This document shows positions 29,271 to 57,662 of a DNA stretch of 64,000 nucleotides, in pieces. Under the pieces are notes generated by a model that made no database searches, was not told the origin of the DNA, and saw nothing but the letters and a program-made list of their open reading frames with translations. The stretch spans positions 496,001 through 560,000 of the forward strand of contig JASANH010001333.1 in the NCBI GenBank assembly GCA_030248295.1, read 5' to 3'. A program made the translations under genes and the position numbers. The number at the start of each line of letters is the position of its first letter. The stretch's first letter is position 1. The stretch comes from Mesodorylaimus sp. YZB2_4 (taxonomy: Eukaryota > Nematoda > Enoplea > Dorylaimida > Dorylaimidae).

Positions 29271-30597
29271 TTATAGATCTTCGCCCGATTCCCCCTCGCT
29301 TTCTTCAACTAGAGCGCATGGGCAAGTACAGAAGCAGCAAAGACACGAATGCGGGTCGTGCCTCGTACGCTCGTCCACGATCTGGTTATACACATCGCAG
29401 GCGTACAAAAATGGATTGATGACGCTAGAAGGAGAAAAATGAAATAACAAGGCATGTTTTGGAAAAGTGAAGCCGTGCTTACCTGTTAACTACGATCAGT
29501 TCTTGCAAGAATCTGAGCATTGTGCTATAAATATAGGAGTGATGGGGCTTGAAATAGATCCATAAGGTCAATGCGTTGTATGGTCCCCAGCATATGATGT
29601 AGACGGTGAGAATAGTCAGGGTCTGGCGGCATAGGAACCGAGTCAATCGCCCGCATTTTAGCAGACCTTTGCCAAGTTTGAATCGACGACCAGCAACGAC
29701 ACGAGACGACGCATCATCTTTGGCTTCTCGACCATTCCCGTGTCTTATTTGAGCATTGACACTCGGTTCGTTCAAGTGCAGTACGACCTGGACCACGATA
29801 ACGATATAGGAAACGGCGATAATGGTGCACGGGATCCAGAATATGGTCAACAGATGGAATATGTTGTAGACTTCGAACCAGGCCATAGAACTCAAATTCA
29901 CACCATCCCTGGCCGCGATGGCCCACACGGTGACGCATTGATTCCAATTCGGTACCACTTCTCGTACTGTCCAAATCCAAAATTGGGGTACGCTACATAA
30001 GACGGCCGATGTGCAGGATATGCCTAACATCAAGTACTCTCTGGCACAACCCCTTCGACATCGACAATCCCTCGATGAGCTGGGTTTCAATAAGGTGATC
30101 ATGCGATCTAGTCCGATACACACAACTGAATTCGAGCACATATGAAATGAAAGAACGCTCAGAAAACGAACTAATTTACATAAAATCTCGCCACCTCTCC
30201 AACTATAAGTCAATGTCCAGATGACTTTGGTGAACGCATAGAAACACAGGACCATCAAATCGGCCATGTTCAATTGTAACTTCAACAAATCCGTTCTCCT
30301 ACTCTGAGATGTTGTCGAACTGAGACCTTGGCTAGCCAATGATCGGGACTTACTTCTACGCCCGCAATGCTCTAGTCTCACAGGCTCGCTCCGAGTCGAT
30401 TGGCGATTACAACTGAACGCGCCCGTCAATCGTAATCGATGCATCAGGCGCAAGCAGATCATGATGGTCATGGGGGCTCCGATGGCGATACTGACGGAGA
30501 GCAGAATAAGAACGAAGTAGTCGGACAACGAATGCTTGGGTGGCGTCATCGAGTTGATACGAGGAGTCGTCGACAAAATTATACTCTCATTCGTCAT
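29271..30597 (-). CDS. Rhodopsin-family GPCR of the GnRH/AKH/corazonin receptor type
   Basis: Exons on the complement: 29483-30597 (or from ATG 30636) and 29271-29424, joined as NS-VINPFLYA. I prefer ATG 30597 (422 aa) because ACATCTCAG just before it can be an acceptor. Seven helices are visible. TM2 has LQLNMADLMV; the family-like SWRGGEILCKL precedes TM3; the DRY motif is DRM in CIGLDRMITLLKP; TM6 has LTVYIICWGPYNALTLW; TM7 has NPFLY. The short C-tail has CLCCFCTCPC, possible palmitoylation sites. The first intracellular loop is enlarged to about 45 Ser/Arg-rich residues. Known family ligands are short amidated peptides; the actual ligand is unknown. Confidence 0.9.
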
Positions 30598-30639
30598 TTT
30601 CGGCTGAGATGTGCTATAATGTAAAACTAAGAGCATCTA

Positions 30640-42949: not shown

Positions 42950-43655
42950 TTATCCAACTGGATCAGTACAGCATGTGTTCTGGTAGCAATATGAACCACC
43001 CGGACATCCGAGTGTAAAACCAATTTGTAATCCAAATCCATCGCTGCTTCCAAATCCTGTCATACTGCATGGTCCAGTTGGCATGCTTCCAAAATCTGAA
43101 AGAGGCATAATTTTAAAATTTGAAGTGGCTCAGGAACAAGTGTGGGAGCCTACATGGACATTCGCTCCCACGCCCCGGCGGACCTGGCGCAAATCCACCA
43201 GCGCCAACTTCTGAAGGAGCCAAAGCGGGAGGTGGGGCTGCTCCAAAAAATGGGGCCCCAAGTTCCGCTCGCTCTGTTGTGGTCATCAACGGAGGTGGCC
43301 GGGGTGTGATTGGGAGAACAATTAATGGTATCAAATATTTTATTGTCTGCCTATTCACCAGTCGTTCCATGTAATCTTCTGATTGAGGGGTCTCTGAGGT
43401 CGTGGGCAAAGTTTCATTGTCGTCAGAATATTCCACAGTTTTGTTCAGAAAATCTTCATATAACTCCATATCAGATGAATTAAAACCACTTTCTGGCTTA
43501 TCTGTCGCTCGGTATAAATCTTGCGAGTCTTGGCTACTTGAGTCGTTGGTTTTGTTGTAAAATTCCTCACCCTTCCTAAATATTGCTGGGTGGCAGTAGG
43601 TGACAGTCTTAGAGCATATGAGAAATAAACTGGAAGAGAAAATGTAAAAATCCAT
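42950..43655 (-). CDS. Secreted six-cysteine cluster protein A
   Basis: Two exons on the complement, 43154-43655 and 42950-43095, phase 1 join, 215 aa. Signal peptide IFSSSLFLICS at the start. An acidic, Ser-rich region with several NxS/T glycosylation sites is followed by a Pro/Ala-rich linker (ITPRPPPLM, AAPPPALAPSEV). The conserved module spans the junction: ECP|YFGSMPTGPCS, then exactly 20 residues to GCPGGSYCYQNTCC. The six cysteines suggest three disulfides. AATAAA overlaps the stop codon (GGATAATAAACC), implying a very short 3' UTR. It is the last of four tandem paralogues. Function unknown. Confidence 0.85.
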
Positions 43656-45075
43656 CGTCTTTTTAGGCTTGGAAAATCAAAACCCGTATTTATTTAAAAA
43701 CGCAAGACTATTCACTTATTTAATCATGTCAGCCAATGCCCCACGCTCGTACAGCGACGTCAGTAGAGTATGACACCTTCCTACACTCGACCTCCCAACA
43801 AGTTTTCGATAACTGCATCGCCAAACTAGACGAAAATGCGAAGAGGTGGCTTCCAAATATATTTGCACCCTACCAGTGTCTGCGCATTAAACTCCTTCGA
43901 GCACATCTGGTCAGTGTGACTCACCGGATAGGAATGATCAGGTTTATGAACTGTTACATTGTCACGCAGTAAAGTCGCTGCAATCTGCCCTCTGCAGAGC
44001 GACCCTGATAAGTATCTTCTAACTGCCATCATTGGAAACTTTCTGTAATCACATAAAGAGATTGATTGTTCTCTGTTGGAATATTACGGAGCCGAAGGTA
44101 ATGGCGGAGGCTCAGTTGTATCAAGTCCTTGTCCAATAACTCGCATCTGCAGGCATATGGCACACCTGACATCCTCACGTTTTTGTAATGTGCCTTTCAA
44201 GGGTGAAGGGGTAAAAGTGTGTGGTTTACAATACGTCCTTGTACCTGACTTACTGCACTATCTCCTCTCCTAGTACTGCTTCTTGCAATTTGGGTCATCA
44301 GATTTGCTGGGTGAATTTATGGACGAGTAAATACAGAAGACGAGGAGTTTTTGCGCGACTGGGAAGTGACTGATGGAGCTTTTCTACCACGCCAAGGCAG
44401 CCGACCCAGTCTTCCTGTCTTGTCCAAGGCTGAAACATCACCTTGATACGTGACCCAGCTGCTGGCTCTGTGCAGCGCAGAGTCTCGATTACCAGTCGAG
44501 CTTCTTGAAGTAGTAAGTTGCCACCGTGGCCAAGGAGAGGGGGCTGGGTTCGAGCCACTGGCACATGATTTCCGCTTCTCTTTGAGTTTAAAAAACTGAA
44601 AAGCTGTTTTTAGCAGCCTAACCGTTTCGAAAGCTTGAAAAAGCGACTACATGAATAGGGTAAGGGTGGGGGCTCGGGCAGGCTTATCTCCCCGGATAGG
44701 GGCTTGGGCAAGTGCAAAATTATTGTGGCTCCAGGAAGTAAAGACTGTTAAGCCAAAATACAAATCACAGTTTTTACAGTTCACACCATCAGAAATAGCA
44801 TTTACACCACGTATTCTAAGGTTTGAAAAGCGCAAATTATATTGGATGGCCTGAAAGTATACAACCCACAATTTTTTTTCTGCTGCGGGGTTCTCTCATC
44901 AAAATTTTTACTCACAATCAGCCAAAATCACACTTTCCATTTTTCCATTTCAGCAGAGGTAAATTTTCACTGATCATAAGCCCGTTTTCGTGTTCCTAAA
45001 TTCAAATCCCTAATTTCCAGCTTTAAAAAAAATCCTGTTCCCATCTTTGTGGTAACGAAAAGTCAAATTGTATTA
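43656..45075. other. Intergenic within the secreted-protein cluster
   Basis: No fifth copy of the GCP-x(4)-C-x(4)-CC module was found in any frame. A short stretch near 44500-44545 has a B-box-like GGGTTCGAGCC, possibly a decayed tRNA-like repeat. Confidence 0.5.
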
Positions 45076-45649
45076 TCACATTGTACAACATGTACTGCCG
45101 CTGCAATAGGAACCGCTGGGGCAGCCAATAGAAAACCCAAGTGCCGAGTCCAAAGTGGATGCACTGCCCACGGACGTCGTGCTGCACGGTCCTGATGGCA
45201 TGCTACCGAAATCTGAAAAATATAAATTACTATGCAATAATTTATGATCTTCGCAGAATTTTTAAAGCGAAGAACTCACACGGACATTCGTTTCCAGTTT
45301 TCCCAGGTCTGTGGTGTCCACCTTTTCCCCGTCCTTTAGAAATTGGAGAATCTGGCGTTGAGACCAAAGATGGAGTTGGAGTGGATGGCCGAGGGATACG
45401 AGTAGAAATCGTCGATTTGGAAGCAGTAACAGGCGAGAAAGAAAATTCAATTGTTCTAAAATTCTCTTTCGCAGTGGTAGCTTTCTTTTTTTGTTCGAAT
45501 CGGGTCCGGCCGGGCGACGCTGTTGAAGTTCTGCCATATAACGACCTCCTTAAAAGATTTCCCTTGAAAAGACGATTTGACGAGATGGGATAAGAATAAA
45601 TCATCGTTAAAACAATGAAAAATAAAAATAAACAAATGAAATATTTCAT
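45076..45649 (-). CDS. Secreted six-cysteine cluster protein B
   Basis: Two exons on the complement, 45280-45649 and 45076-45212, phase 1 join, 168 aa from ATG 45649 (chosen because a strong signal peptide MKYFICLFLFFIVL starts there). The linker is basic and Ser/Thr/Pro-rich, with dibasic sites (LLRRSLYGR) and GRGKGGHHRPG before the module. Module: ECP|YFGSMPSGPCS, 20 residues, GCPSGSYCSGSTCC, then TM and stop. Cysteine number and spacing are identical to paralogues A and C while the linker shares nothing visible with them. Intron only 67 bp. Confidence 0.85.
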
Positions 45650-45699
45650 TGCGAAACTAACTCCAAAAACGAGGGTGTCTAAATTTGCACATCGACAAT

Positions 45700-46485
45700 G
45701 CGCTAATGCCGTGGCCGTCACACATCAACCGTGACGTACTATAGGCCAACATTTCGCTGAATGACGTACGCTCTAACAGGTTTCTTTAAAAGGAAGCCAA
45801 CTTATGACGCAGTGAGCACTAAATTCATTTTACTACTCTCAAGTTAGCGTTGTTACAGTTTCAAAAAAAGATTAAGTTTCAGTTCCAGTTCCAGTAACCC
45901 AAAATAATGCAGTTTCAGTTTCAGTTGCTGGTTTAGATGCAGATTTTCACCCTGCACAAATCCTGCACAGCGTTTCTAGCAGCTCATGCTAAAAAATTAC
46001 ATAATCAACAGTTTGTTTAGAATTGTGCGAAACAATATTTCTCAATGTTATCTAATTAGTACTGTAGATCAGACCAAGGGATGAGCATAAGGCAGTCAGT
46101 AAGTGTTCTGTTGTTTTGAGCCTGCGGTGATCCTTACAATTAACTGGGGCACTAACAATAATTTTCATTACACAAACTGGCCATAAAGTCAGTCAAGCAT
46201 CAAAATGCTGTCTAAAATTAAATGGTCTTGGCGCGAATTGATCACCAGTTTCTTATTCAGATCAGAAAGATAGTTTTAAGTTTTTGTTATTGCAACAGGA
46301 TTGAGCACTCAAAAGTTTAAACGTTGTATTGCACAATTTTGTCAACTACAATAAAAATACGTTACATTTTATTGTTCTGAAACACTTCAATGTTCCTTAT
46401 GACAACTTAAAAATATCCTTTTCGCCTTGCTGTCATGGATTTCTGTTTCATAAACCAGTCAGTCAAGCAGTCATGCATCCATCTT
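45700..46485. other. Intergenic within the cluster, nothing recognised
   Basis: AT-rich spacer between paralogues B and C. Short CAGTTTCAGTTCCAG-like words near 45870-45925 form a small simple repeat. Promoter elements of gene B should lie at its left end but no TATA box is clear. Confidence 0.5.
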
Positions 46486-47174
46486 TCATAAAGGATCAGT
46501 ACAACAGGTGGTGCCCGAGCAATAGGAACCAGCAGGGCAACCAAGGGATAATCCAACTCCAAAGCCAAATCCACCTTGGCTTCCAAGACCGATCATGCTG
46601 CAGGGCCCTGCCGGAAGACTGCCAAAGTCTAAAATAGATTTAGATACTCTAGGATGGCAATATTTTTGAGTGCCATTGACAAAAACACAGAGACAGATTA
46701 GAAACAAAGGTCACTTTTTTCTGCTCTATTGCAGAGTTGCTGCAACTTACACGGACATTCTCCTCTAGATTTAGCAGCAGGAGACATTTCTTGCGGCGCT
46801 TCTTGAGGGAATTTGTCTTTAGGATCCTCGTCTATGGATCGGGGTCGAAAAGCTTGCTTGGATGCCGCTATGAGAACTGGAGTCTCAGGAAGCGACTTGT
46901 TGGATGAAGTTATAGGAATCCAGTTACCACTTCTATTAGACTGTATTGGCAAAGAAAGGTTTTCCGACAATTTATTATTTCCAGCTCTGGATGAATAAGA
47001 TGAATTTTGAGCGTATTCGAATCCCAGTTGATCTTTGGTCGATATACCAGATGACAAACTTTCAGTTTTTGTAACATTCCAATCATCCTGTACTTCGACT
47101 GAAGCACAATGACAACACACACTTGCAAATAGTAATAACAGACAGCTCAGGAAAATTCTTTGCTGAAATTCCAT
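46486..47174 (-). CDS. Secreted six-cysteine cluster protein C
   Basis: Two exons on the complement, 46751-47174 and 46486-46628, phase 1 join, 188 aa. Signal peptide IFLSCLLLLFASVCC. The linker has several N-x-S/T sites (NVT, NSS, NLS, NRS, NKS) and is unlike A and B. Module: ECP|YFGSLPAGPCS, 20 residues rich in Gly, GCPAGSYCSGTTCC, DPL and stop. Intron 122 bp. The orientation matches its neighbours (about 840 bp between C and D, about 840 bp between C and B), so unequal crossing-over is the simplest origin of the array. Confidence 0.85.
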
Positions 47175-48009
47175 AATCTAGCCTCTCGACTCCAATATAA
47201 ATATCACTACTCGCAGTCAGGTTGTGTACACGTGAAGAGCACAACGAAAGTAGTTTCTGGCGTGTACTTATGAGCTGAGAAACAGGTTTTCACGTTTCCA
47301 AGTGCAAGGGCCCTCGATCGCCTTATATAGGTGTAGTGTAGGTTAACTCTAACTGGAGCAATGCTTGCAAAATCCATCCACACACACCCTGTAGTGCGGA
47401 TAATAAAGGGCTGTTGGATAATATTTCCATATTTTATCAGCAAATGAGCCGCCATTTTGCTGATGTTAAGACCCTGGCAATACAATAAACATCCGTTTAG
47501 ATCACTGGATCTCAAAGACCCTCGAAGCGCTCATTTTTCAACCATTAATACGAGGGAGCTTATCCAAAGCACAGATATGCGGCTGCTCCATGGGTGGTAA
47601 GGCCTGCAAGTCTGGGGTTGGAGTGATAGCAGTACTGTAAGTCGCCGTTAGGGAACCTTGAAGCGAGGAAGACAAAAGTGCTGCAGGTGAAGGCTCGTTC
47701 ATATTCGCGTCGTACCGGCGTATGTGTCGTAAACCTAGCAGCATAGGCATAGCGCACACGTTGTGTAAGTTAATGATGCTCAGGTACATCATACTGTAGC
47801 TATGTCGCGAATTCGCTAGCAAGTCGGAAATTTACAGCGGCAGTGTTCTAAAATTTGACTTTATACAATATTTTTTTATTAGACATTATATTGATCATAT
47901 ATGTTTGTATACAAACGAAAAACATTAAATTCAAGGCTCATCTACCCGAATATTTCGAGAAACTTGGTTACATTGGCTTGTAATCACCCATCATGGACTA
48001 GGGCCCCTC
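47175..48009. other. Intergenic within the cluster, nothing recognised
   Basis: Spacer between paralogues C and D. The minus frames at 47207-47515 and 47538-47822 show no signal peptide, module or splice partners. The promoter of gene C is expected at the left edge. Confidence 0.45.
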
Positions 48010-48491
48010 TTACACAATACTGCGTATCACTGGTATCTTGCAGCAAATGTTTCTGTAACAGAACATGTCCACTGGACAGCCGCACGCAAAGCCATGCACG
48101 GCCGCATCTAAAAATAAGCTTATAACTAGTCTTATAACTCGTCTAGGCCCGCATTTGGTGCAGCAGGGGCCCTTTAAAGAGAATATGGTTCCAGCAAAAC
48201 AACTGACATTTGACTGGGTCAAAACTTGGATCTTCATGGTTTCATGAATCTTTTCGCTATCACGAGTCTGGGGACCTGGTTAAGCCAAGTCTAGCTCATC
48301 TGTCTTCACTTACAAGGGCAATATGACGATATCATCGGTATCAGAGTCGGCACTGCTGGCTTCCCAACAGGATCAACCTGCTGGCGTAAGTTTAGAGCCA
48401 TATCTTGATGAACTGGCCGAGCAGCAACTTGTAAGTACAGTACTGTATAGCTGGCTGAAAACAATAAATGCTTAAACAAGGTAAAATGCAT
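48010..48491 (-). CDS. Secreted six-cysteine cluster protein D (divergent)
   Basis: Two exons on the complement, 48314-48491 and 48010-48107, phase 1 join like its paralogues, about 91 aa. Signal peptide MHFTLFKHLLFSASYTVL. The linker is only about 35 residues. Module: SYCP|YAAVHGFACGCPVDMFCYRNICC. All six cysteines are kept with the last spacings unchanged (5 then 4 then adjacent), but the 20-residue loop between Cys2 and Cys3 is cut to one residue. The acceptor TTATTTTTAG and donor CCTT|GTAAGT are good. An oldest or fast-diverging member is possible. Confidence 0.7.
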
Positions 48492-49076: not shown

Positions 49077-50960
49077 GGCGATATCATCATCATCATCATC
49101 ATCGTTTACTCCATACCCAAGCAAATACATGCTTTAGACGGGAGGAAGACACATAAAAAAATAATCAAAACTCATACGCGTGATAAAGTTACTAAATCCA
49201 CGAAAAGTCGACCGAGCGTAATCCCATGGTACAGAGTTCCATAAAACTGTTGCAGAAAACAACAAAACTTCGTTTGTAGGACTCGAAATTATGACTTGGA
49301 ATAACCAAATGATGCGGTTCACACAATCGCCTACTAGCACGACAGTCAGATTTGTGTAAAACGAGAATTCCCAAAATCATTAAGCCCATGGTAAAGCTTA
49401 TAAAATAAATCCAATTTTGCACGTTTACGCCGCTCATACATATAAAGTGGGCCAGCCTGCCTTTACCAAGGCGTCCTCGTAAGACATGGTAAAATTGTTA
49501 AGATACAATCGCACAGCAAACTTATTCGCCCTTTCAAGATGATCAATATCACATTTTTTGACAGGATCCCAAATAGCTGATCCATATTTTAAGACCGACC
49601 TAATACATGATTCATACACTCTACCAAAAACAGACGGAGGTGCATGCCTACCCAGCTTCCTTCTCAATACGCCAATCATTGTATTGCACTTACGAACTAA
49701 ATGAGATATGTGATCTGAGAAATCTAAATGACAGTCGAAAGTGATCCCAAGATATTTTACCTTCGCGAGGAACTCCACTCTTTGACCAAGGACCGTGATC
49801 TTGGGCGCCGAATCCAATTTTTGATGACCGTATCGGAATAAAATCGCTTGGAATTTTTCGACGCTGAAATCCGAACCGGAATCTCAAACCCATGTGCAAA
49901 TAAAATCGACCATTGATTGCATTGCTCTTTCAATATCTTGTGTTGATTCGACTGGAACAAATAAGGCTAAATCGTCTCTGTAGGCTTGAAGAAGGGCGTC
50001 TCGAAATCTTCACGGAAATTCTTCCAGCAGCGGGCCGATAAACGCTACGAATAATGTGGGACCCAAGATAGACCCGTGTGGGGCCCCACTGGTCACGGCC
50101 GAAACGTCCGATGAACAATTGTCAATTACAACCCGTTGCGATCGGCCAGTTAAATATGACGTAAGCCATCGTATGATCTTCACAGGTAAGCGATGATAAG
50201 TCGAAAGACGCTCAAGCAGGGTTGAATGCTGAACTTGATCGAAAGCTTTCTTACTGTCCAGAAATAAACCAAACACAAATTTATAATTCTTTGACACTTT
50301 TGTTTTCTCCGAATTAGGGGCGTCGTGGGCGTATTGCGTGGCAAGCAAGCGAGCACTATTAGCGCCCCGACGTCTACAAAAACCATGCTGTCGGGGCGAA
50401 AGGCGTAGTTTTCGGCGTAAAATATCCTCGACGTGACGCTCTAGTAGTTTTGAGAGTATGGAAAGAAGTGAAATTGGCCGGAAAGATTTCACTTTGTTCT
50501 TTTCTCCGGCCTTGGGAATCGGCACGACCTTGGCACATTTCCACACTTCAGGGAAGTGCTCTTCTTGAACCGAACGATTAAAAAGAAGCGTGAGTGCCGG
50601 AATGATCGAAGGGGCAATATTACGGATAATATGTGGCGAGAGACCATCCTCACCAGGGGCACTGCTCACCTTCATCTGATTGATTTGTCTTCGAACGAAG
50701 GCCTCACTGACCGAATAATCCATAAGATCATCAGGATCATCTGCGGGTGGATGAAATTTGATAGCACTAGCCGACGTAAAGTTAGTCGAAAAATATTGAT
50801 TCAAAGCATTTGCTTTTTCCGCTTTGCTGAGGAGAGGTCGATCAAAATCGTCGACCAGAACGGGCAATTTGAATATCAGCCATAACTCACTGATCTTTCG
50901 GTCTTGTACGATTAGCGACCAAATCAGCGTGCTCGAAATCAATGGAGGATCTAATGCCAA
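49077..50960 (-). mobile_element. Decayed non-LTR retrotransposon (LINE), 5'-truncated
   Basis: On the complement a 316-residue frame (50010-50960) shows reverse-transcriptase blocks: SAPGEDGLSPHIIRN, VVPIPKAGEKNKVKSFRPIS, LFLDSKKAFDQVQH and SGAPHGSILGPTLF. After a TGA the same frame continues with AYRDDLALFVP in place of the usual YADD, then VKYLGITFD (49434-49817) and RAKLDLFYKLYHGLND. Several stops and frameshifts show it is dead. The 3' end is GCTTGGGTATGGAGTAAA followed by a (GAT)n tail at 49079-49102. It is most like CR1/Jockey-type elements. The 5' end is cut near 50960. Confidence 0.9.
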
Positions 50961-51589
50961 ACGCGAAAAGTTTCTATTTCACACCAGCTTCGAGATATTG
51001 GGTGCCAAAGTAGAAGGTGCCCTCCAAGTTAACGTCATTCAGATCTCCGCTCCTTTGTAGTAAACCAGCTTGAAATACCGTGTGCCCGAACAATCTAGCT
51101 TTCAATGTGATCGCCCCCATCGTCAATACTTTTGCTTTACATTCGATTTCCAAATATGAGAAAAAAATGCAGGCAGCCGTAAGGTTTTCAGAAAAATCCA
51201 TTTTTTAAAATCTTTTTAAAACAAATCATGAAACTGAACAATTATTTTTGGATGGAGCATAACGATGGCATCGATTGGGTTTTCCGCTTGAAATTCGACT
51301 TAATCTCATAAGATTTAGGATTTAAGTGAATGATTCAGTTTTCCTTAAAAAAAATTTCGTATCTAGACATGAACGCTAAAATCTTCACTTTCCTCCATTC
51401 AGATGCCACATTTTTGCATTTAGACTCCAATAACCTTGTCAACCATGGTCGAAGTTGACGTATCCAATGATCGTAATTTGTTCAGGCCAAAAAAAAAGCT
51501 ATTTGCAAAATTGTGGGCCCTTCTGGCCAAACGGTCAGCAGTAATCAGCTTTAAAAATCCTGCGAGTTTTTAAGTCTTCTCGCTCTGTC

Positions 51590-55524: not shown

Positions 55525-56928
55525 TCACTTTTTCAGAGTACTTTTCGCCTTTGACACCTTCCCAACCGTTTTCACTTTGGACACATCCAAGTTAATCGCC
55601 GCCCCTTTCGCATTTTTGCCCGTCGTTTTGGCAATTGGACTCGGCTCGTCTGCTTGCTTCTTGATGATACTTTCCACAGATTTTCTCCCGCCCAGGCGTC
55701 TGGCTTGTTGCTTTGCTTCCCAGCGGTTCTCCCGATAGATTAAGACGGCCACACCCAACAGCACTAGCAGTATCAAGGTGATTCCGAGCACAGTGATACC
55801 AGCTATGATTTGTTGCCTTTTTTGCTCTTTCTCGATAGCTTCCTGTTCTTCAGCGTAGCATTCCTCTAGTTGGAGACCGCTTATTGTGCAGTTTCGCCAT
55901 ACGTCTTCCAAAACTCCGTCGCAGCAGAGATACGGATGCTGCTGCGTGTTGGCCAAGCCAATCAATTCGAATCCGGACGACGACTTGCAGGTCGCGTTGC
56001 AAGGTATCTTAATGATCTGAAGCGCGGCTTCGTTGATGATGCACCTTTCGAGGCACCTTGAGGTGTCATTCGGCGAGGTTTCGTTACATGGCATTGTCGT
56101 CAATCGAAGATTGCAGAATTGCTCATATTTGGACACATTTGTCGACTTTTCCATGCAGTGCCAATATTTCTCGCACATATTGAGCTTGCAACTTCGGAAG
56201 TAGACCTGTTCATAGTGGCACTCGTCGTGGCTGTACATTTGGCATTGGCAAGTTTCTAGTAAGAACTTGACTTTTTTCGTAACTTCGCTGATCAGAATTT
56301 CCACGTAGCTAGCTGGATCTCGAGCACTAATGCGTGATGATGGATTTTCGTCGTAATCGCTGTAAATGCTGGCCACGTGTTCCCCTGGAACGGTAATGTT
56401 GTCGACAGCAACTACAATATGGCGATGCTCACTGTCCACTCGACTCTTGGTGTGATTTTCAGCCGCTTCGGACCAGTTGGACGAGTTAGTCATGAGCAGT
56501 TCGAAGCTGATACGCACAATTGGTCGTACGTGTCGAACATACTTTATTGGCACAGAGCGGATGACACTCGCCAAATTATCTTCTTCGATAGCTTTCTTAA
56601 TATTCTCGACATGTTCCTCGCTCTGAACTCGTAAAATCTTTGCCGTATTTTTCACTCGCCACGGGATCATTAGCGAACTGTAATTGAAATCAACGAAACT
56701 CCTCGTTTTGGAAAACAGTCCGCCAATAATAAGCTGGAAGTAACGCCCGGATGGCTCCCAATTGAAGGTTACGAAAATGTCCGCGCGAAACCCGCCAATC
56801 CAGTTTTCATGCCTCTCCATTCCAATCGTCGAGTTCGGTATCGACACTGGAGGATCTGACATTTCCGACATTGACCATATCGGGTTGATCAAAATGGCCA
56901 CGAAGATGAGGAAGCTCGAAAAGCGCAT
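55525..56928 (-). CDS. Single-pass type I membrane protein with cysteine-rich ectodomain, unknown family
   Basis: An intronless 467-codon frame from ATG 56928 to TGA at 55525. Signal peptide FSSFLIFVAILINPIWS. The ectodomain (about 20-370) has several N-x-S/T sites. Its first half is cysteine-free and looks beta-rich. The second half (about 225-365) has roughly 17 cysteines, including CQCQMYSHDECHYEQVYFRSC, CEKYWHC and CLERC. One transmembrane helix lies at 374-398 (AGITVLGITLILLVLLGVAVLIY). The 69-residue tail is very basic (KSVESIIKK, KVSKAKSTLKK). I recognise no family. The layout suggests a cell-surface receptor or adhesion protein. Confidence 0.7.
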   Translation of the reverse strand: MRFSSFLIFVAILINPIWSMSEMSDPPVSIPNSTIGMERHENWIGGFRADIFVTFNWEPSGRYFQLIIGGLFSKTRSFVDFNYSSLMIPWRVKNTAKILRVQSEEHVENIKKAIEEDNLASVIRSVPIKYVRHVRPIVRISFELLMTNSSNWSEAAENHTKSRVDSEHRHIVVAVDNITVPGEHVASIYSDYDENPSSRISARDPASYVEILISEVTKKVKFLLETCQCQMYSHDECHYEQVYFRSCKLNMCEKYWHCMEKSTNVSKYEQFCNLRLTTMPCNETSPNDTSRCLERCIINEAALQIIKIPCNATCKSSSGFELIGLANTQQHPYLCCDGVLEDVWRNCTISGLQLEECYAEEQEAIEKEQKRQQIIAGITVLGITLILLVLLGVAVLIYRENRWEAKQQARRLGGRKSVESIIKKQADEPSPIAKTTGKNAKGAAINLDVSKVKTVGKVSKAKSTLKK

Positions 56929-57662
56929 TTGTTTTGAGGAATGGAAACAATAGGCACAAAGCGACGAGCGCGAGCCTGAAGAGAACGCGACAAAATTTGG
57001 GAAGCAACTGAAGTAAATGGAAAGTAATCCAAATCAGGGCCCTTTGTCCGATTTACTTTACAATACCTTTTGTACTTAATGCATATCTATTTTTTTCGCT
57101 CATCATCACAAGCTTGCCTATACACCCATAGAAAGCTTGGCGGCAAATCGAAAGTGTAGGACTCATACGCGATCAAAACGTAATCTCTTCACACATCCGT
57201 TGTTGTCCGCATTTACTTTTTGCCAAATCCAATAAGAATTCGACAATCTTCTTTTGACATTGCGAATCCACCTTGCGAACGGTGATTTCGGCCACATTGC
57301 GAATCCAACACCGAATCCCATGCGAATCCACCCTCGTTTCAGTGTGTGGATCCATACGATTAGACGTGGATTCATGCGGACTCCACTGAGGATTCAGGGA
57401 AATTCATCAGAGACCCGTATGGACTCAGTGCGTGGTTCCATATGGTTTAGGGGCATAATTTACATGGTTCTGTATGGATCTGTGACGGAATTTGAAAATT
57501 CTAGATAATGGGCATTTATTTAGCAATGCACTCCTGAATTTCCCGCGGATCCCGCAATAAGCACTCTACATATAGCACGGATCCTTTTCGTAGTGCTGTG
57601 CGCATATTTGCTTTACAAACTTGCTCAGGACAGAAACATATCAATATTTGCTGAGTGGTAAT
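56929..57662. other. Intergenic, GGATCCA/GCGAATCCA-rich stretch
   Basis: Around 57250-57400 the words GCGAATCCA and GTGGATCCATACG recur, partly palindromic. A similar GTGGATCCA-rich stretch lies at 62710-62900. No gene is seen. Confidence 0.45.

Follow-up and report, generated by a model that had tools for sequence, protein, structure and literature searches.

What kind of proteins are encoded by four neighbouring genes whose products end in much the same pattern of cysteines and are otherwise hardly comparable? This question is raised by a stretch of 64,000 nucleotides (hereafter, the window) from Mesodorylaimus sp. YZB2_4 (contig JASANH010001333.1, positions 496,001 to 560,000 of the forward strand), where four two-exon genes, A to D, lie on the minus strand between positions 42950 and 48491. 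The original prediction described a tandem array of secreted proteins in which a fixed six-cysteine module follows unrelated linkers. A-D are members of a real nematode gene family, of an ordinary kind, which has no name in the libraries searched. As to their role, we favour, with a probability of about 0.45, the view that they are secreted extracellular effector peptides in which a conserved end carries a variable loop. Function, secretion and disulfide pairing are predicted here from the sequences, as would be any immune, reproductive or structural role.

The gene models of A-D are likewise predictions, obtained by locating the exon ends by sequence and translating the spliced frames, and the four two-exon genes were found where they had been proposed. 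They would encode proteins of 215, 168, 188 and 91 residues, respectively. The introns (58, 67, 122 and 206 bases) have GT...AG ends and phase 1 in all four cases, and each splits the Tyr codon of a CP-Y motif, in agreement with the original prediction. The gaps between the six core cysteines (C1 to C6) are the same in A, B and C (10-20-5-4-0), also as announced, and are 9-1-5-4-0 in D. For D, an alternative in-phase AG, about 20 bases upstream of the chosen acceptor, would give a longer C1-C2 stretch.

The likeness among the modules of A-D is far from chance. Those of A, B and C share 61-69% pairwise identity (alignment scores 166, 204 and 175), and their linkers, which had rightly been called unrelated, are not alignable (scores 6, 3 and -13). 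Using the exon-2 protein of C as a query against the 145-Mb genome, A and B were matched (Table 1) and D was not among the matches listed; with D as the query, a gene on contig C39 was matched at 2.8e-4 and A at 0.0055. Moreover, the A-C module looks to be under constraint in the predicted frame. Over 47 codons, the Nei-Gojobori method gave nonsynonymous divergences (dN) of 0.30 (A-B), 0.21 (A-C) and 0.31 (B-C), versus synonymous divergences (dS) that were saturated, 2.56 and 1.69, in the same order. In the other two reading frames, dN exceeded dS in 4 of the 6 comparisons, and dN/dS was about 0.98 and 0.75 in the remaining two. A separate dN/dS estimate for module and linker, suggested earlier as a check, could thus be obtained for the module, where dN is low and dS high, the linkers being beyond alignment. 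Since dS is high or near-saturated, the duplications are old, and an unconstrained linker would be unalignable in any case. The fast-changing head of the original prediction therefore stands as far as unalignable linkers are concerned; it would reflect little constraint, and is not a sign of rapid change by positive selection.

The family extends beyond the window. Six exon-2 queries, including those of C and D, were compared with the genome, and 15 stretches were then submitted to gene modelling. This gave 11 genes in which the module is complete, besides three decayed copies, on four contigs (Table 1). These counts can be lower bounds: at least 11 genes have the module in full, and other members may exist. 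Within the window, the family profile finds A-D only. The core pattern of the 11 genes corresponds to C1-P-Y-x(7-10)-C2-x(1-33)-C3-P-x(4)-C4-x(4)-C5-C6, with Arg for the first Pro in C50y and Phe for Tyr in C50x. A phase-1 intron splits the CP-Y codon in 11/11 genes, and the C3-x5-C4-x4-CC end is constant throughout (11/11), two members having a further cysteine inside x4. The C1-C2 segment varies from 9 to 12 residues. The C2-C3 loop counts 20 residues in A, B and C, 1 in D, 17 in C39a and C39b, 21 in C262b and C79, 29 in C50y and 33 in C262d and C50x. Thus, the module is fixed within the A-C subgroup, and the claim of a fixed module is rejected for the family as a whole. D does keep its six cysteines and a short loop, as had been noticed, but it did not suffer a special loss: because loop length varies family-wide, D is an ordinary short-loop member, and its description as a loop-deletion mutant is rejected.

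Each member, when left out of the profile, was recovered by it (11/11) at E values from 2.5e-13 to 3.8e-5, and no reversed decoy did better than 0.084 in any of the 11 runs, these E values referring to 8872 distinct frames from the family loci and the window, some of which are cut copies of the same gene, and not to the genome. A tree of the 11 modules groups A, B and C (99/97) and places C262d beside them at 82/87, below the tool's own mark; five of its eight inner branches are open. Two further candidates were rejected. One was a further decayed module, placed at residues 26-42 of the open frame that precedes exon 2 of D; it reached a domain score of 1.9 bits, with an independent E value (i-E) of 230. 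At C4:1624437 (L063), no exon 1 was seen and the cysteine spacing is wrong (13.8 bits).

Table 1. Predicted genes and decayed copies of the family (window positions for A-D, contig positions for the others)
Feature	Position	Strand	Description
Gene A, exon 1	43154..43655	-	signal-peptide-like start, long acidic linker, 5 N-glycosylation sequons; ends C-P-(T)
Gene A, exon 2	42950..43095	-	cysteine module; stop at 42950; matched by exon 2 of C, 9.5e-15
Gene B, exon 1	45280..45649	-	signal-peptide-like start, basic Ser/Thr/Pro-rich linker, net charge +15
Gene B, exon 2	45076..45212	-	cysteine module; matched by exon 2 of C, 1.6e-10
Gene C, exon 1	46751..47174	-	signal-peptide-like start; 5 N-glycosylation sequons in linker
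Gene C, exon 2	46486..46628	-	cysteine module
Gene D, exon 1	48314..48491	-	weak signal-peptide-like start, short linker
Gene D, exon 2	48010..48107	-	short-loop cysteine module, C2-C3 gap of 1; acceptor picked by eye
C39a, C39b	contig C39, near 48.5 and 67.7 kb		complete module
C262b, C262d	contig C262, near 58.6 and 63.9 kb		complete module
C79	contig C79, near 225 kb		complete module
C50x, C50y	contig C50 (the window's own), near 44.9 and 46.6 kb, ~490 kb away		complete module
Decayed copy	C262 near 52 kb (L044/L045, ~50.8-52.5 kb)		inserted element with flanking direct repeat interrupts exon 2
Decayed copy	C262 near 60.5 kb		C4 replaced, usual donor missing
Decayed copy	C262 near 115 kb		stop within match, C4 replaced

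All 11 members begin with a hydrophobic, signal-peptide-like segment, the weakest among A-D being that of D. Signal peptides and cleavage sites were estimated from hydropathy only, crudely for the latter, and no cleavage site was found in C79 by this estimate. The linkers then differ widely. Their net charge is -10 in A, +15 in B and -2, near neutral, in C. The five sequons of A were equalled in none of 2000 composition shuffles, and the five of C have a P value of 0.006 on the same comparison; C39a has two (P 0.07), C50x one (P 0.45), and the remaining members, including B and D, none. Outside the window, the linker counts 15-44 residues in six of the seven members and 73 in C50x.

By the reading that we favour, the proteins would leave the cell and act outside it as small, disulfide-stabilised effectors, in defence or in interactions of the animal with a host, prey or microbes. 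C3-C6, the constant end, would serve as a scaffold, and contact with the target would fall to the C2-C3 loop, whose length and composition are free to vary. The spacer of exon 1 can be acidic, basic or glycosylated, or be nearly missing, and would determine where the protein goes, its charge and its solubility; the family would turn over by tandem duplication and decay. This reading draws on the copies carried by the same genome on contigs C39, C262, C79 and C50, on the gene models and cysteine gaps, the phase-1 joint and the leave-one-out recovery of all 11 members, and on the low dN versus high dS in A-C. It draws also on the clustering of the genes, on the three decayed copies on C262, and on the excess of sequons in A and C. 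Several observations weigh against it. The loop of A-C is constant at 20 residues, which would fit a structural role equally well, and the near-saturated dS of A-C gives no evidence of positive selection. Four members (C39b, C262b, C262d and C50y) have extra cysteines in the module, so that a single common disulfide scaffold is unproven. In C262b, a stop occurs two residues after the CC pair and the tblastn match continues through it, suggesting that the tail may be cut short. Finally, the AlphaFold2 (AF2) model, computed from three rows of exon 2 only and without C1, is poor (mean predicted local distance difference test, pLDDT, 59.8; predicted template modelling score, pTM, 0.33), with a hairpin near C4-CC only.

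A broader proposal, which we regard as tentative and rather doubtful, is that of a nematode domain family not described so far. In it, a C3-C6 scaffold that stays constant, always spliced on at the CP-Y codon, would carry a hypervariable loop of 1-33 residues, and secreted effectors would be diversified through tandem birth and decay. Families of small, cysteine-rich secreted proteins are frequent, and often confined to particular lineages. The present one has a sharp signature (the CP-Y splice joint and C-x5-C-x4-CC) and nothing in Pfam, so that other nematode genomes can be searched for it straight away. Were the loop the working surface, the family would represent a natural scaffold with many loop lengths already tried.

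The main rival to a role as effectors is a structural one, in which the genes would encode components of the extracellular matrix or cuticle: the cysteine module would dock or cross-link, and the charged or glycosylated linker would give the material its properties. For A-C, this fits about as well as effectors do, one conserved module with a constant 20-residue loop being joined to very different linker chemistries, and the C3-C6 half resembles the repeats of another protein of the same genome (see below). Outside the window, however, the short linkers of 15-44 residues in 6/7 members, loops that all differ from 20 residues (7/7, 17-33) and the decay of three C262 copies argue in the other direction, since such features would be less usual for structural genes. 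Overall, a structural role seems to us somewhat unlikely.

It can also be proposed that the module has diverged from an already known disulfide fold (three-finger/Ly6, WAP four-disulfide core, or repeats of lustrin or EB type) to the point where sequence profiles miss it. Three-finger toxins do come first in two of three PDB sequence searches. One of these gave toxins at 0.66-0.86 with one further row at 5.9, and the other gave two toxins (0.86 and 1.2) whose alignment covers the GCP...CC end; the remaining search gave a rhamnogalacturonase at 0.44. All these E values are at chance level. For the two toxin rows just mentioned, whose domain scores are 12.4 and 11.9 bits, the composition bias is strong (7.5 and 7.7), and the two toxin-yielding searches are not independent, C39a being in both. 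The alignment of C3-C6 with the cysteine repeats of the same genome also speaks for such a fold. Against it, WAP and three-finger folds are closed by further cysteines, which are missing here after the CC pair, and none of the 11 modules matched such families in Pfam at E values up to 10. At that threshold, the sole match was YnfS, for one member, at 0.094, below threshold; in another Pfam scan, this member scored 13.2 bits versus a cut-off of 27. The full proteins A-D had no match in Pfam at E up to 1 (0/4), nor had any of three sequences tested in NCBIfam. The original remark that the family was not recognisable is thus consistent with the absence of any match above cut-off in Pfam or NCBIfam and of any above chance level in PDB. 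A hidden known fold appears unlikely. A peptide pattern was matched by 14 stretches of viral contigs and 12 of prokaryotic ones, and tblastn with the three-row A-C alignment as query found no relatives there. Five module peptide strings searched in full texts led to no paper, and nothing recognisable as a CP-Y six-cysteine family stood among the papers listed by literature searches, or in passages of PMC6130879, PMC5763927, PMC13388995 and PMC11603191.

Cysteine-rich hormone or signalling precursors are an improbable alternative, according to which cleavage at a basic site directly preceding C1 would free a mature peptide, encoded by exon 2, from the propeptide of exon 1. Single basic residues do occur within the eight residues before C1 in 9 of the 11 members; D and C50x have none there, no member has an adjacent basic pair (0/11), and a loop of 1-33 residues would be hard to reconcile with one conserved receptor. 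That the genes are unexpressed relics or chance reading frames, as the three decayed C262 copies might suggest, is very improbable in view of the constraint in the predicted frame and of the splice joint kept in 11/11 genes.

The genome itself gave 133 matches to Col_cuticle_N, the cuticle collagen family that is a marker of nematodes, which agrees with the host implied by the original prediction. In-frame TGA codons occur in the mitochondrial COX1, for which translation code 5 was used. The large ribosomal RNA beside it is apparently on the other strand, and this would be at odds with a chromadorean arrangement. A hairworm host was rejected: inverted repeats of 14 bases or more, with their two arms within COX1, were looked for and none was found, unlike what is reported for hairworms (PMC6649704). 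The search for the spliced leader RF00198 gave no match in the genome, nor did its control, so that it is uninformative. COX1 has 15 matches in the assembly: at G000 C73:251445-254668, a nearly complete copy with 10 in-frame TGA and two partial matches about 1 kb from it on the opposite strand, and 12 on other contigs. They would represent either errors of assembly or fragments of mitochondrial DNA among the nuclear contigs. Within the window, a reverse-transcriptase frame (RVT_1, 50010-50978, minus strand) lies just upstream of gene D and is followed by a frame without Pfam match (49434-49883, minus strand), which by eye would be the end of an element of the non-LTR (long terminal repeat) type. 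Also on the minus strand are an open frame of 502 residues (55525-57033), cysteine-rich, with a transmembrane-like segment by eye and no Pfam match at E 0.001, and a rhodopsin-type receptor frame (29479-30636; 7tm_1, 4.8e-22). Among 115 C2H2 zinc finger rows, 22 are alike (E 1.3e-4, 30.3 bits, positions 2-23) and spread over many contigs, 12 of them in a 236-residue frame; they are probably a repeated mobile element carrying a zinc finger.

How, then, does the module compare with known systems? The likeness to three-finger toxins and Ly6 proteins is weak and local, confined to the GCP...CC segment. These proteins have a closing Cys-Asn after the CC pair, which is absent in 11/11 family members; moreover, the matches (E 0.66-1.2) include an extra cysteine inside the segment. 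The WAP four-disulfide core has eight cysteines, two of them after the CC pair, whereas 0/11 family members have two there (C262b and C50y have one), and no module matched WAP in Pfam (0/11). Tm-WAP of Trichuris muris is a secreted nematode protein with a repeat of 50 residues and six conserved cysteines, the family unit being of similar size and cysteine number. It has, however, 3-10 repeats per protein, in contrast to the single module placed after a phase-1 intron here (PMC6130879).

A further likeness lies within the same genome, at L018 (G000 C42:223982-227056), where a repeat of the type C..G..PVCPCS.GCP..T.CQ..GCCP occurs at least nine times, over several exon-like open frames. We take these to be similar to lustrin-like cysteine repeats, although no tool assigned that name: two L018 repeats had no Pfam match, one had none in NCBIfam (it was among the three sequences mentioned above), and no whole-domain match of lustrin type was found in Pfam for the 11 modules. 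The repeats differ from the family module in being tandem, of about 33 residues, with C-x-C before the common half, and in having neither the CP-Y start nor the C2-C3 loop. Nevertheless, their GCP-x4-C-x4-CC half aligns with C3-C6 of the family (19 columns, hhalign probability 82%), and one L018 frame was found by the family profile (E 0.0035 among the frames of the family loci and the window). The early suggestion that the C-terminal half resembles other cysteine modules is thereby upheld, and the C3-C6 half may represent a building block shared among nematode proteins.

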